The notes below the pieces were generated by a model. That model was not told where the DNA came from and did not search any database. It worked only from the letters and a program-made list of their open reading frames with translations. A stretch of 5,059 nt of DNA from Planctomycetota bacterium (GTDB taxonomy: Bacteria; Planctomycetota; PUPC01; DSUN01). Positions 1,607 to 5,059 of this stretch are shown in pieces (the stretch's first letter is position 1; the number at the start of each line of letters is the position of its first letter). The position numbers and the translations under genes are program-made. The DNA lies in NCBI GenBank assembly GCA_016872875.1, contig VGYW01000549.1:1-5059 (forward strand). Reading direction: 5' to 3'.

Positions 1607-3217
1607 TCAGTGTGCCGGGCGCACCCACACTTGCGCAGCGAGTCCCCTGCTCTCAATCAGGCCCGTGCCGCCCGCCTGCGTGTCCCAATGCTCCTCTGGC
1701 CCGGCCCTGAAGTAGAAGGCGGGGTTCACGCGCCGCGCCTGCCAGGCGGCGAGGGCGCCGTGGCCCTCGCCCCAGGCCGGCAGCCCCTCGAGCGGCTGCC
1801 ACGCGGCGTCCTCCTCCGGCAGCTTGCCCCCCGCGCCCGCGATGGCGAAGCGGCCGCCGCGAACAGCAATGTCACCCTCCCGCATCCGCCTCTCGGCCTC
1901 CGGCGCCTCGCGCCACGGCCACCAGGCCGCAAAGCAGCGACGCGACCCCCGCGTGAGCGCGCACTCCACCCGCCAGCGGCCCGAGGCATCTCGCTCCACC
2001 ACCGCCCCGCCCCCGCCCGCGCCCTCCGCACTGTGGTAGAAGGGCACCACCGCCTCCGCCGCCCCGAAGTCCAGCCGCACCCGCGTGCGGCCCAGGGCCT
2101 CCAGGCACACGATCTCCGTGCGCCTCTCGCCCGCCTGCCACTGCACGCGCTCCAGCACGCACGCCGTCTCGCGCGAGCCGCGCCCGCTTGGCAGCATCAA
2201 GCCCCATGCCACGGCCGCGAGCGCGGCGGCCACCCCCGCCACCAGCGCGGCGCGGAGCCAGCGGCCGCGGCCCCTCAGGGCGAACCGCGCCGCCAACGCC
2301 CCCGCCGCCAGCAGCGCCACGGCGCCGCCCACCAGGCGCCACCGCAGCCCCGTCCCCCAGCGCGCCCCGCGAAAGGCCGTGTAGAGGCCAGCATCCGCCC
2401 ACTCGTCCCGCCCCGCCGCACCCTTCAGGAACCTGCCGAGCAGCCCGTGGGCGAACTTCTCAGGCGTCCGCGCACACACCGTGCCCAGGCCCAGCCGCCA
2501 CCAGTGCGTGCCATCCACGCCCAGGGTTGATTGCCGTGCCGCCACCGCCGCCAGCCACTCCTCCGCGCTCGGCCGGCCCGCGCACCCGCCCAGCTCCGCG
2601 AGGAGCGAATCCCCACGCACCGGCCCCTTCGCATCCAGCACGAAGCCCGCCACACCCCCGCCACGCACCCACTCCGCAATCGCCACCCGGGCCGCGGCCG
2701 GCACCTCGCCGCCGTCGCCCCCGAAGCCCAACCCATCCACCGCAGCATAGCCCGCCACAAGCGTCGGCAACTCCTCCGCGCGGACCGCCGCCCGGCAACC
2801 CCCGAAGAGGTCCTCCGCCGCCGGCCTGGGGAGCCCCACCGCGGCCACCAGCGGCTTGCCCTCCTCGTGCCGCCGCAGGCCGAGCGGCGCGTCCCCACCG
2901 AAGAGCACCTCGCCCCCGCCCGACCGCACAACCACGCGCGCCCTCGCGGCATCCGAGCGCGCCACGGCGAGCGCCTCCACCGCCGCCGTCGTCTGCGCCC
3001 CAACCCGCACCGGCTGGCGGAACGTCAGCCCCTCCACCACCAGGTCGAGCGTCCCCTCGAACGCCGGCCCGCCGTTCGACAGGCTCACCCGGACCAACAG
3101 CGGAGCGCCCGGCCTGAACTCCCCCTCCCACGCCGCGGCCAGCCTCACCGACAGCGCGCCCCCGTGGCACGCAAGCGTCCCGGTCAGCGCCCACAACAGC
3201 CCTGCCGCCACGCGCAT
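1607..3217 (-). CDS. Membrane protein with GATase-like extracytoplasmic domain, function unknown
   Basis: A 536-residue protein not assigned to a named gene. Residues 1-17 look like a signal peptide (MRVAAGLLWALTGTLAC). Cys17 is not in a good lipobox. Residues about 25-115 resemble a beta-sandwich (FRPGAPLLVRVSLSNGG). Residues about 120-250 resemble a class I glutamine amidotransferase-like fold, with LPTLVAGYAAVDGLGF followed by AARVAIAEWVRGGGVAGFV, but no catalytic Cys-His pair is evident. Two helices lie at about 295-313 and 321-342 with a basic loop between them (RGRGRW). Both large halves should therefore face outside the cytoplasm. The C-terminal 190 residues are rich in Trp and Arg, with no known motif. 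Proteins of this general plan occur beside BatA/VWA-type genes in Planctomycetota, but no such neighbour is visible here. ATG 3217 is chosen because the upstream extension to GTG 3433 would be translated from a highly structured leader and lacks protein-like character. A GTG at 3223 is an alternative. The SD is weak (GGGG, about 6 nt before the ATG). Confidence 0.75.
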   Translation of the reverse strand: MRVAAGLLWALTGTLACHGGALSVRLAAAWEGEFRPGAPLLVRVSLSNGGPAFEGTLDLVVEGLTFRQPVRVGAQTTAAVEALAVARSDAARARVVVRSGGGEVLFGGDAPLGLRRHEEGKPLVAAVGLPRPAAEDLFGGCRAAVRAEELPTLVAGYAAVDGLGFGGDGGEVPAAARVAIAEWVRGGGVAGFVLDAKGPVRGDSLLAELGGCAGRPSAEEWLAAVAARQSTLGVDGTHWWRLGLGTVCARTPEKFAHGLLGRFLKGAAGRDEWADAGLYTAFRGARWGTGLRWRLVGGAVALLAAGALAARFALRGRGRWLRAALVAGVAAALAAVAWGLMLPSGRGSRETACVLERVQWQAGERRTEIVCLEALGRTRVRLDFGAAEAVVPFYHSAEGAGGGGAVVERDASGRWRVECALTRGSRRCFAAWWPWREAPEAERRMREGDIAVRGGRFAIAGAGGKLPEEDAAWQPLEGLPAWGEGHGALAAWQARRVNPAFYFRAGPEEHWDTQAGGTGLIESRGLAAQVWVRPAH

Positions 3218-3220
3218 CGT

Positions 3221-3229
3221 CACGCCCCA
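3221..3229. repeat. Direct repeat, left copy (possible target site duplication)
   Basis: CACGCCCCA here is repeated exactly at 3410-3418, bracketing the structured element. Read on the minus strand this copy is TGGGGCGTG and supplies the only purine-rich stretch before the ATG of the membrane protein gene. If the termini are drawn symmetrically at 3231 and 3410, the flanking 9-mers match at 8 of 9 positions. Confidence 0.55.
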
Positions 3230-3230
3230 A

Positions 3231-3410
3231 GGGTGCAACAACGGATTCGTGCAGGTGGGCACACTGGAAACCAAACCCAGCTCCTCTGGGTCTGGTTTCC
3301 TCTTCAGTCCACCATTGCCCGGGCCAGAAAGCAACAGACTTACTGAACCGACCGAGGAGCCGCTCGGTTCAGTAAGGTGTGCCCACCTGCACAAATCCGC
3401 TATTGCACCC
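3231..3410 (-). ncRNA. 180-nt three-way-junction element with kissing loops (structured leader or MITE-like element)
   Basis: The outer stem pairs 3231-3264 with 3377-3410 over 34 positions with three mismatches. Inside are hairpin A (3266-3280 with 3286-3300, 15 positions, one mismatch, loop CTCCT) and hairpin B (3339-3351 with 3364-3376, 13 bp, perfect, 12-nt loop). About two thirds of the element is base-paired. All four mismatches (3239/3402, 3241/3400, 3248/3393, 3274/3292) are A-C on the plus strand but G-U on the minus strand. GCTCCTC around loop A (3280-3286) is the exact complement of GAGGAGC in loop B (3354-3360), so the loops could kiss. A 38-nt linker (3301-3338) contains CCCGGG. 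It lies in the leader of the minus-strand membrane protein gene, its last base 13 nt before the ATG. It carries no gene and matches no riboswitch class I recognise. A non-autonomous mobile element is the main alternative, and both may be true. Confidence 0.6.
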
Positions 3411-3418
3411 ACGCCCCA
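3410..3418. repeat. Direct repeat, right copy (possible target site duplication)
   Basis: This is an exact second copy of CACGCCCCA found at 3221-3229. Its first base overlaps the last base of the outer stem. It runs into the palindrome at 3416-3449. A 9-bp duplication is a length produced by several bacterial transposase families, but the family cannot be named from this. Confidence 0.55.
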
Positions 3419-3449
3419 GAACAGAGTTGACACAACGCCCCTGTTCTGG
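3416..3449. promoter_or_regulatory. Palindrome at the start of the minus-strand leader, possible operator or 5' hairpin
   Basis: CCAGAACAG (3416-3424) and CTGTTCTGG (3441-3449) are perfect inverted repeats. The 16-nt interior holds a further GTTG-ACA-CAAC hairpin (3426-3436). The candidate minus-strand -10 box lies immediately to the right, so a transcript of the membrane protein gene would begin inside or at this palindrome. It may be a protein-binding operator between two divergent transcription units, or a protective hairpin at the 5' end of the mRNA. Confidence 0.45.
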
Positions 3450-3463
3450 TAATTGTATATATT
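3427..3463 (+). promoter_or_regulatory. Candidate promoter region for the tRNA pair
   Basis: A perfect TTGACA lies at 3427-3432. The best -10-like sequence, TATATT at 3458-3463, is 25 nt away, which is too long for a normal sigma70 promoter. At the ideal 17-nt spacing only TAATTG (3450-3455) is found. TATATT lies 24 nt before tRNA-Val and is well placed to start its transcript. The only AT-rich stretch in this area is 3450-3463, so a promoter is likely here even though the boxes are uncertain. Confidence 0.35.
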
Positions 3464-3479
3464 CAGCCGAGCGCGTCCA
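3452..3479 (-). promoter_or_regulatory. Candidate promoter for the membrane protein gene
   Basis: Read on the minus strand, TACAAT (3457-3452, five of six consensus bases) is preceded after 16 nt by TGGACG (3479-3474, four of six). Transcription would start near 3445 and run through the palindrome and the 180-nt structured element to the ATG at 3217. It shares its AT-rich core with the plus-strand tRNA promoter region, making this a divergent control region. Confidence 0.4.
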
Positions 3480-3564: not shown

Positions 3565-3703
3565 GAGGCGGGCGGCGTGCCGCCACGCTCATTGGCAACC
3601 CGGGGGCGTAGCTCAATTGGTTAGAGTACCAGATTGTCGATCTGGTGGTTGCGGGTTCGAGCCCCGTCGCCCTCGCCATACCCCCATTTACTATCGCCCA
3701 CCA
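3554..3703. repeat. 11-bp direct repeat of the tRNA-Val 3' end flanking tRNA-Asp
   Basis: ATCGCCCACCA occurs at 3554-3564, where it is the 3' acceptor strand, discriminator and CCA of tRNA-Val. It occurs again at 3693-3703, 15 nt beyond tRNA-Asp. The copies are 139 bp apart and bracket tRNA-Asp. Flanking bases do not match. Duplication of a tRNA 3' end is what integration into a tRNA gene, or loss of a second tRNA-Val copy, would leave behind. An 11-mer match is short, and chance is not excluded. Confidence 0.5.
3602..3678 (+). tRNA. tRNA-Asp (anticodon GUC)
   Basis: This is a complete cloverleaf. The acceptor stem GGGGGCG pairs with CGCCCTC (3668-3674) with one G-T wobble. The D-arm is GCTC/GAGT. 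The anticodon stem CCAGA/TCTGG encloses TTGTCGA with anticodon GTC, which reads GAC and GAU. The T-arm GCGGG/CCCGT has the loop TTCGAGC. The discriminator is G3675, the identity base expected for aspartate tRNA, and CCA is encoded at 3676-3678. The 3' two thirds of the gene overlaps, in antisense, the last codons of the serine recombinase, which suggests an integration site. Confidence 0.97.
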
Positions 3704-5059
3704 TCCCTTGTGTGCCGCCGCCAACGGCGGCCACAACATGTCGTGCCCCACCTTCCGCTTCACTGTCCGAATCCGCCTTCCGCCCGATAGATTCCGCCGC
3801 CGCACAAGCCAGGTTGAACACCACCCGCGCCCGTCCGCGCCCCAAGTCGAGCCGCACTTCCCGCACGACCGCGCGTAGGACCGCGGCCACGTCCAGGAAC
3901 TCGGCGTTGCCCTGTGCCGCGTCCAGGTAGGCCCGCAAGTCGCGCCACAAGCCCACGTCCGCCGCCGCCTGACGTATGCTCGCCCGCTCCCCCTCGCACT
4001 CCGCCAGGGCGTCGTTGACCCGCTGCTTCGCCTCTGCGATCTCCCGCAGCTTGCCCGCCACGTGCTCGGGGGCCATCGTGCCCCCGGCTACCGCGTCCAC
4101 AAGCCGCCGCTCCTGGCCCTCCAGGGCGGCCAGCTTCGCCTTGAGGCCCTCCACGCGGGCGTCAAGCTCCCGCTCCCGCCGCCCGACCTCTTGCCGTGCG
4201 GCGTCCAGGGTGCCCGCGAAGAACTCCGGGCTGCCAACCGTCGCCCGCAGCGCCCGCAATAGCTCCCTGTCGAACTCCCGCGCGTTGATCCTCTGCCCCG
4301 TCACAGGGTCCTGATAGTAGAAGGTGACTACTCCCGTGCTCCCCTTTGCCCAGTAGCGCTTGAACGGCTCGCCGCCCGCGTCGCGCACCACGCCCACGAG
4401 AGCGGGAGCGTCGGCGCCCTCTACGCCCGCGGTCCGCGGCTTGCGGCTCTGCCCCCTCTGCCCCGCGGCAAGGCGCGCTTGCACGGCTTCCCAAAGCTCC
4501 GCGCCCACGATGCCCTTGTGCCGGCCCGCGTAGCTCTGCCCATTCCACAACACCCGCCCGATGTAGACGGGATTCCGCAGCATCGCCACAACGACCCGCC
4601 CGCTCCACTTCTCCCCGTGCGGCCCCCCGACCCCATCTGCATTCAGGGTGTCCGCGATCAACTGCGGCCCGTCGCCGTCCAGGAACCGCCGGAACACCTC
4701 GCCCACCCGCCCGGCGTCGCCATTCGGCTTCAACGTCATTGGCGCCCCTTCTTCGCCGCTCGTCGGCACGCGGTCGTACCCGAACGGCTGCCAGCGCGCC
4801 GGCCAGTAGCCCGCCGCCGCGCGCGAAGCCAAGCCCTGCTTCGTCCGCGCCCGAATCTGCTCCCGCTCGAACTCCGCGAAGCCGGCCAGGATGTTCAGCA
4901 TGAGGCGGCCTTGCGGCGTTGACGAGTCAAAGCTCTCTGTCACGGACACCAGATCGCACCCGTGCCCCCGAAGCGTCTCGAACAACTGCCAGAAGTCCAG
5001 CACGCTCCGCGAGAGGCGGTCAATCTTGTAGACGAGGAGCGTATCGCAATCCCGCGCCG
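3621..5059 (-). CDS. Large serine recombinase / site-specific integrase (N-terminus beyond window)
   Basis: The frame stays open to the right edge, so the gene is partial; about 478 residues are visible. The first are LLVYKIDRLSRS, the second half of the resolvase catalytic domain with both active-site arginines of DRLSR. The catalytic serine must lie outside the window. GRLMLNILAGFAEFEREQIRAR follows, the long E helix of this fold. Next comes the recombinase DNA-binding domain (QPFGYDRVP... to LRNPVYIGRVLWNG). A zinc-ribbon-like module follows (ALVGVVRDAGGEPFKRY...FYYQD) that has no cysteines and so cannot bind zinc normally. A coiled coil (about partial residues 285-365) completes the large serine integrase plan. 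The GTG at 5003 is internal, not the start. The last 18 codons and stop TAA (3621-3623) are antisense to tRNA-Asp, and the preceding 45 residues are low complexity. This enzyme class integrates and excises phages and other mobile elements. Confidence 0.92.
   Translation of the reverse strand, partial: ARDCDTLLVYKIDRLSRSVLDFWQLFETLRGHGCDLVSVTESFDSSTPQGRLMLNILAGFAEFEREQIRARTKQGLASRAAAGYWPARWQPFGYDRVPTSGEEGAPMTLKPNGDAGRVGEVFRRFLDGDGPQLIADTLNADGVGGPHGEKWSGRVVVAMLRNPVYIGRVLWNGQSYAGRHKGIVGAELWEAVQARLAAGQRGQSRKPRTAGVEGADAPALVGVVRDAGGEPFKRYWAKGSTGVVTFYYQDPVTGQRINAREFDRELLRALRATVGSPEFFAGTLDAARQEVGRRERELDARVEGLKAKLAALEGQERRLVDAVAGGTMAPEHVAGKLREIAEAKQRVNDALAECEGERASIRQAAADVGLWRDLRAYLDAAQGNAEFLDVAAVLRAVVREVRLDLGRGRARVVFNLACAAAESIGRKADSDSEAEGGARHVVAAVGGGTQGMVGDSKWGYGEGDGARTRNHQIDNLVL
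3714..3731. repeat. GC-rich hairpin downstream of the tRNA pair
   Basis: GCCGCCG (3714-3720) and CGGCGGC (3725-3731) form a perfect 7-bp stem with a CCAA loop. On the plus strand it follows the tRNA pair by 35 nt and might end that transcript, but no T-tract follows. It lies inside the recombinase reading frame, in the low-complexity tail, so it could also simply reflect Gly/Ala codons. Confidence 0.3.

Follow-up and report, generated by a model that had tools for sequence, protein, structure and literature searches.

A 180-bp structured sequence in the window (the whole 5,059-nucleotide stretch of planctomycete DNA analysed here) is a MITE-like insertion upstream of a gene for a 536-residue protein. 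We hold with high confidence that it is a non-autonomous mobile element, bounded by 23-bp inverted ends, that inserted 13 bp upstream of the gene's ATG and duplicated 9 bp of its target. An earlier note, made from the sequence alone, had read the same 180 bp as an element of an mRNA leader that could control translation, with a three-way junction locked by kissing loops. The features on which the argument turns are the following, in window coordinates.

1607..3217, minus strand: the downstream gene, 536 residues, with hydrophobic stretches seen by eye and no Pfam match
3222..3230: target-site duplication, first copy, ACGCCCCAA, close upstream of the ATG at 3217
3231..3253: left terminal inverted repeat, 23 bp, family form GGGTGCARTARCGGATTTGYGCG
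3254..3386, minus strand: conserved core, comprising an inner stem (GGGCACAC/GTGTGCCC), two hairpins and a variable linker, as seen in alignment A2, covariance model R1 and its hits, and blastn with the window's element
3266..3300, minus strand: hairpin 1, in which 3266-3280 pairs with 3286-3300 over 15 positions around a 5-nt loop (3281-3285)
3301..3338, minus strand: linker of 38 nt, varying in sequence and length among copies
3339..3376, minus strand: hairpin 2, in which 3339-3351 pairs with 3364-3376 (13 pairs), followed by a C.C mismatch, two further pairs and a 6-nt loop (3355-3360)
3388..3410: right terminal inverted repeat, mate of the left
3411..3419: target-site duplication, second copy, ACGCCCCAG
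3452..3479, minus strand: promoter-like site, TGGACG-16-TACAAT, directed at the element and the gene; a putative promoter

The case for insertion begins at the borders. The element measures exactly 180 bp (3231-3410) between its inverted ends, and flush outside its arms stand direct repeats, overlooked in the earlier note, that are identical at eight of nine positions (ACGCCCCAA versus ACGCCCCAG). Duplications of 9 bp indicate a staggered double-strand insertion and not HUH chemistry. Equivalent repeats flank other members of the family. The window's type is represented by 13 complete elements of 180-185 bp, the window's own and 12 in genome G001: eight have a duplication matching at 8/9 or better, two match at 7/9 and three have no clear one. 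A second type of complete element, 152-154 bp long, has a duplication of at least 8/9 in 15 of 18 cases at the fetched loci, against 9 of 2352 comparisons between non-cognate flanks. These 13 and 18 elements were drawn from 49 end pairings, the remainder being nested pairings, other cores or chance.

Empty sites complete the case. A single contig in the GTDB set, L001, encodes a relative of the 536-residue protein; it belongs to G001, a fragmented Planctomycetota MAG of 8.9 Mb. Its gene order is that of the window (serine recombinase, tRNA-Asp, tRNA-Val, gene), the element is absent, and the distance from ATTACCAGA to the ATG is 48 nt, compared with 227 nt in the window. The protein has 14 homologues, its own database record not counted. 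One of them (P0002, 65% identical) carries the N-terminal residues VYIITRI 20 residues ahead of MRG, compatible with the same TATATAATTACCAGA leader, so that its locus, as judged from the protein, seems to be without the element too. The other homologues inspected were uninformative on this point. Elsewhere in the family, 215 nt separate rplN from rplX in G001, compared with 12 nt in a second genome, G002, which marks the G001 copy there as an insertion as well.

Several further observations concern the locus itself. In its database entry (P0001, 555 residues) the protein starts 19 residues earlier, within hairpin 1 of the element, and the reading frame is open through this part of the insertion (window 3218-3274). 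On the far side of the element, window 3602-5057 holds the serine recombinase gene, whose open frame extends into the tRNA-Asp gene (3602-3678); both neighbours are likewise present in L001. A second long palindrome, at 1507-1608, lies directly past an L,D-transpeptidase gene and is built of GGATG/CATCC-like repeats, with arms of 39 nt that are 87% complementary.

The placement of the element in a 5′ leader survives as a probable one. The promoter-like site upstream of it (3479-3452, minus strand) has 9 of 12 matches, a level that shuffled sequence reaches 0.1 times per region, and L001 has TGGACG-16-TATAAT at the corresponding position, as seen by eye. Together these sites suggest that the element is probably part of the transcribed leader. 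What did not survive is the notion of a leader that belongs to the gene: the orthologous region in L001 is without the element, and other copies stand beside unrelated genes.

The architecture described in the earlier note is otherwise accurate, each part lying where it was said to be. The outer stem pairs 3231-3264 with 3377-3410, and its 34 positions comprise 31 Watson-Crick and three G-U pairs on the minus strand; the hairpins of 15 and 13 positions and the 38-nt linker lie inside it. The predicted structure is strong: its free energy is -131.5 kcal/mol on the minus strand, where shuffled sequences give -74.8 (sd 4.8; z = -11.9), and -108.1 kcal/mol on the plus strand (z = -11.2). The three-way junction holds in part. 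The closing stem and the two hairpins are there, but the minimum-energy structure of the minus strand also has a 9-bp hairpin in the linker; absent from the family consensus, this hairpin would make the window copy a four-way junction. One arm of hairpin 2 (window 3364-3378) is similar to the terminal repeat, and a 120-bp element at another locus, L027, ends near the equivalent place.

Homologous copies of the element were found in two genomes, G001 and G002. A blastn search of G001 with the window's element gave 65 local matches, both strands of the palindromes being counted. At a threshold of at least 94 bits, the covariance model recovered 20 core copies in G001 and one in G002; it was built from 18 of the 20 G001 cores, the G002 core and the window, so its count is not independent of the blastn result. 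Alignment A2 holds 20 of the 22 listed cores, one false second arm and one truncated copy having been excluded, and is also without a copy on contig C658 in which the left arm is replaced. The terminal repeat is more numerous than the core, with 60 and 62 matches in G001 at three or fewer mismatches, while a reversed control pattern gave none.

This distribution is narrow. Across 392 planctomycete genomes sampled from a larger group, the core model, run with strict filters, matched in G001 and G002 only; across the class, the same two of nine genomes carried it. The end pattern in those 392 genomes gave 110 sites in G001 and one two-mismatch site in G098, with no mate in the locus. A distant blastn search of the element against plasmids and phages returned no match, and exact arm, end and core patterns each returned none from IMG/VR. 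The absence of an Rfam family, including any purine-riboswitch match, was borne out both at gathering cut-offs and with E-values up to 10; within the element the search returned just microRNA and snoRNA models far under their cut-offs.

Ends and cores are exchanged within the family. The 23-bp ends also enclose other palindromic cores, in the second type of 152-154 bp and in a kind of about 250 bp. Conversely, the window's core also occurs within other outer arms (GGGAAAACCCAGG...CCTGGGTTTTCCC and variants) with extra hairpins on both sides, in seven copies in G001 and one in G002. The genes downstream of these other-arm copies are unrelated: thiL, a mutarotase, an O-antigen-ligase-like gene, an HD protein, rplX and, in G002, tex. 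The elements upstream of tex differ between the genomes, being of the second type in G001 (L042, C559:3177-3329) and a core-bearing copy in the other frame in G002 (L076, C48); the tex match in the G001 locus spans 2005-3054 on the minus strand. Palindromes resembling GGCCTTCAGGCGGTCTT, which form the core of second-type elements, are also seen elsewhere in G001 loci.

Orientation separates the two frames. By the calls of a crude GC3 gene finder, seven of the eight copies in the other-arm frame run in the same direction as the downstream gene, and all seven whose upstream gene could be called run with that gene too; one copy lies inside the rplN-rplX spacer. Elements of the window's type are without such an orientation (downstream 9 versus 4, upstream 5 versus 8). 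The sense orientation of the other frame speaks for the best-surviving alternative, in which the core is a transcribed RNA module that acts like ERIC in the processing or stability of messages, spreads in two mobile frames and is kept for its role in those messages. Both-sided changes at 6 of the 20 pairs in that frame's outer stem, and a core that is better conserved than the linker, point the same way. Against it stand the lack of any preference in the window's type, the inconsistent wobble bias described below, and a sense-oriented frame that itself is without the loop contact; its orientation may, moreover, reflect merely which insertions are tolerated. We regard such a module as rather unlikely.

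Stem covariation deserves separate treatment: across homologous copies, changes in the stems are compensated, as the kissing-loop proposal had required of its helices. The consensus of 20 cores contains 39 pairs, 12 of them altered on both sides. Between 95.3 and 98.5% of cells are paired in the four stem helices over the 20 copies (hairpin 1, 95.3%; the helices of hairpin 2, 97.1 and 98.1%). Scored against 500 shuffles, the full structure, loop contact included, comes out above every one of them on four of the five measures used and above 499 on the other. Many core pairs are invariant over the 20 copies, which hints at recognition beyond pairing.

Whether an RNA or a DNA keeps these stems was approached through wobble pairs, since a strand selected as RNA should carry its own stem differences as G-U. 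Core counts of G-U versus A-C on the minus strand are 25 to 12 by cells and 14 to 11 by distinct events (p = 0.35). The outer stem gives 14 to 21, or 13 to 17 without the out-of-register row L003, and the outer stem of the other frame gives 0 to 3. With no consistent wobble bias for one strand, upkeep at the DNA level suffices, and strand-specific RNA selection as the sole cause of the stems was rejected. Template switching at replication can both create and mend stems and can yield double changes, according to the portions of PMC8794818 consulted; covariation is thus not taken here as proof of RNA function.

The loop-loop contact fares differently from the stems. The complementarity that suggested it, 3280-3286 with 3354-3360, is exact over 7 nt, but only five of the seven positions lie in open loops: 3280, 3286 and 3354 sit in pairs that close the hairpins, so that with the stems intact loop 3281-3285 meets 3355-3359 over 5 bp. 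By an after-the-fact estimate, a 7-bp match arises from random loops of 8 and 7 nt in 0.0003 of draws. The match is perfect over 7 nt in the window copy alone. Over the 20 cores, 54.0% of contact cells are paired compared with 54.5% after shuffling, and four of six slid versions pair more. The contact as a lock of the fold is not kept over these 20 copies, and the loops as a set, unlike the stems, change without compensation.

Within the window's type there is a weak tendency towards pairing. At least five contiguous loop pairs, wobbles allowed, occur in 11 of 13 window-type copies on the minus strand and 5 of 13 on the plus strand; by the same measure the other frame scores 1 of 7, non-cognate loops within the window's type 109 of 156, and random loops set against the commonest partner 37%. 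A comparison with nucleotide-shuffled loops returns p values of 0.001-0.010 over all copies, below 0.001 within the window's type and 0.82-0.84 within the other frame, values that are not independent because the copies are related. When cognate loops are exchanged between copies, p is 0.19 over the whole set; within the window's type it is 0.012-0.016 if the window is included and 0.14-0.18 if it is excluded, in a test whose power is low because one loop barely varies. At most, the contact characterises one copy lineage; it is not what unites the family.

These results leave little of the proposal that the element is a cis-regulatory leader RNA governing the gene through a junction locked by loop-loop contact. 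It can call on a very stable fold in a probable leader, on covarying stems, on the exact 7-nt match, on window-type loops that outdo shuffled and random ones, and on the window's own outer stem, where all three differences are G-U on the minus strand. That wobble bias is absent in other copies, and the loop comparisons above, together with an orthologous leader that is without the element and copies that adjoin unrelated genes, make the proposal highly improbable. No tie to translation control or to a ligand emerged, so neither is supported, and a purine-riboswitch-like RNA was rejected because the position is not conserved.

A different idea is that the core is an independent structured module, of RNA or of extruded DNA, adopted by at least two unrelated mobile frames, one with transposon-like ends that duplicate 9 bp and the other a sense-oriented spacer frame. 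Its retention would be due to recognition of the module by a host or transposition factor, or to a tuning of messages, and loop contacts would have been gained in one copy lineage and be lacking in the other. This we consider distinctly unlikely. There is next to no chance that the element is of the REP/RAYT type, mobilised through recognition of single-stranded DNA hairpins by a tyrosine (HUH) transposase: it is a hairpin-rich multi-copy palindrome, and REPs extend to Planctomycetes, but REPs as defined in the sections of PMC3733652 used here are palindromes of 20-40 bp with a GTAG or CGTC tag at one end, and this candidate was rejected on its ends (GGGTGCA/TGCACCC), its size (150-185 bp) and its 9-bp duplications.

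The preferred reading remains that of a MITE-like mobile element. As the direct repeats and the empty relative show, it entered 13 bp ahead of the ATG of the 536-residue gene and duplicated 9 bp of target. A transposase supplied in trans, making a 9-bp staggered cut, would mobilise palindromes with such ends. The matching of the arms may be maintained by a need for paired ends or cruciform DNA, together with template switching at replication. Once in place, the window element would be transcribed within the leader and fold as a branched hairpin. The duplication retains 9 nt beside the start region, so translation may continue little changed, and any change in expression would follow as a by-product, as with ERIC or Correia elements. 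Regulation by the element, if any, is best read as incidental.

The search for the transposase covered three Pfam families in G001 and G002, both fragmented genomes. The 10 PF01609 loci and the one PF12762 locus yielded no autonomous element bounded by such ends, and PF00872 had no match. Inward frames were listed at nine end sites; those at one of them, L106, were searched against families and are pilus or secretion ATPases. Two G001 loci (L138 on C37 and L140 on C163) hold DDE_Tnp_1 genes near inverted repeats such as CGTTTGGAGTCCCGCCTT, to which the GGCCTTCAGGCGGTCTT palindromes of the second-type cores are similar.

Comparable elements are known from other bacteria. Correia or NEMIS elements of Neisseria, as outlined in the parts of PMC2229807 drawn on, are likewise about 100-200 bp long and have inverted ends and target duplications, come in variants enlarged by extra interior sequence, and form a long hairpin if transcribed; the window's family differs in its ends, its 9-bp duplication and its branched two-hairpin core. 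ERIC (IRU/RU-1) of enterobacteria consists of intergenic co-transcribed palindromes whose orientation affects mRNA stability, and may be compared with the sense-oriented frame in G001; effects on expression are reported for ERIC and proposed for NEMIS (both from the same excerpts of PMC2229807). The window's element differs in having no sequence or structure match in Rfam. BOX, RUP and SPRITE of pneumococcus are, in the account excerpted from PMC3049150, structured mobile repeats in a few related species with a probable effect on co-transcribed genes; they differ from the present family, in which one core is common to two frames and one pair of ends is used with several palindromic cores. To the purine riboswitch the window copy owes its resemblance through a closing stem, two arms and complementary loops; unlike the riboswitch, it has no Rfam match, its contact is not conserved over the cores and its position is not conserved.

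No prior description of the family was found in the literature on MITEs with Planctomycetes, kissing loops or three-way junctions, a body of work in which few subscription journals were covered. The element is best read as belonging to a new, modular MITE-like family of structured repeats, of a bacterial kind already known, in which the exchange of ends and cores is the unusual trait.

The finding removes a riboswitch-like candidate from the list. For a mobile palindrome whose arms template switching can match, a stable fold with stem covariation is insufficient for calling a riboswitch. This modular family of structured repeats, which move within an uncultured lineage of planctomycetes and exchange ends and cores, also offers a usable case for studying the evolution of such palindromes and whether the transcribed form is of consequence.
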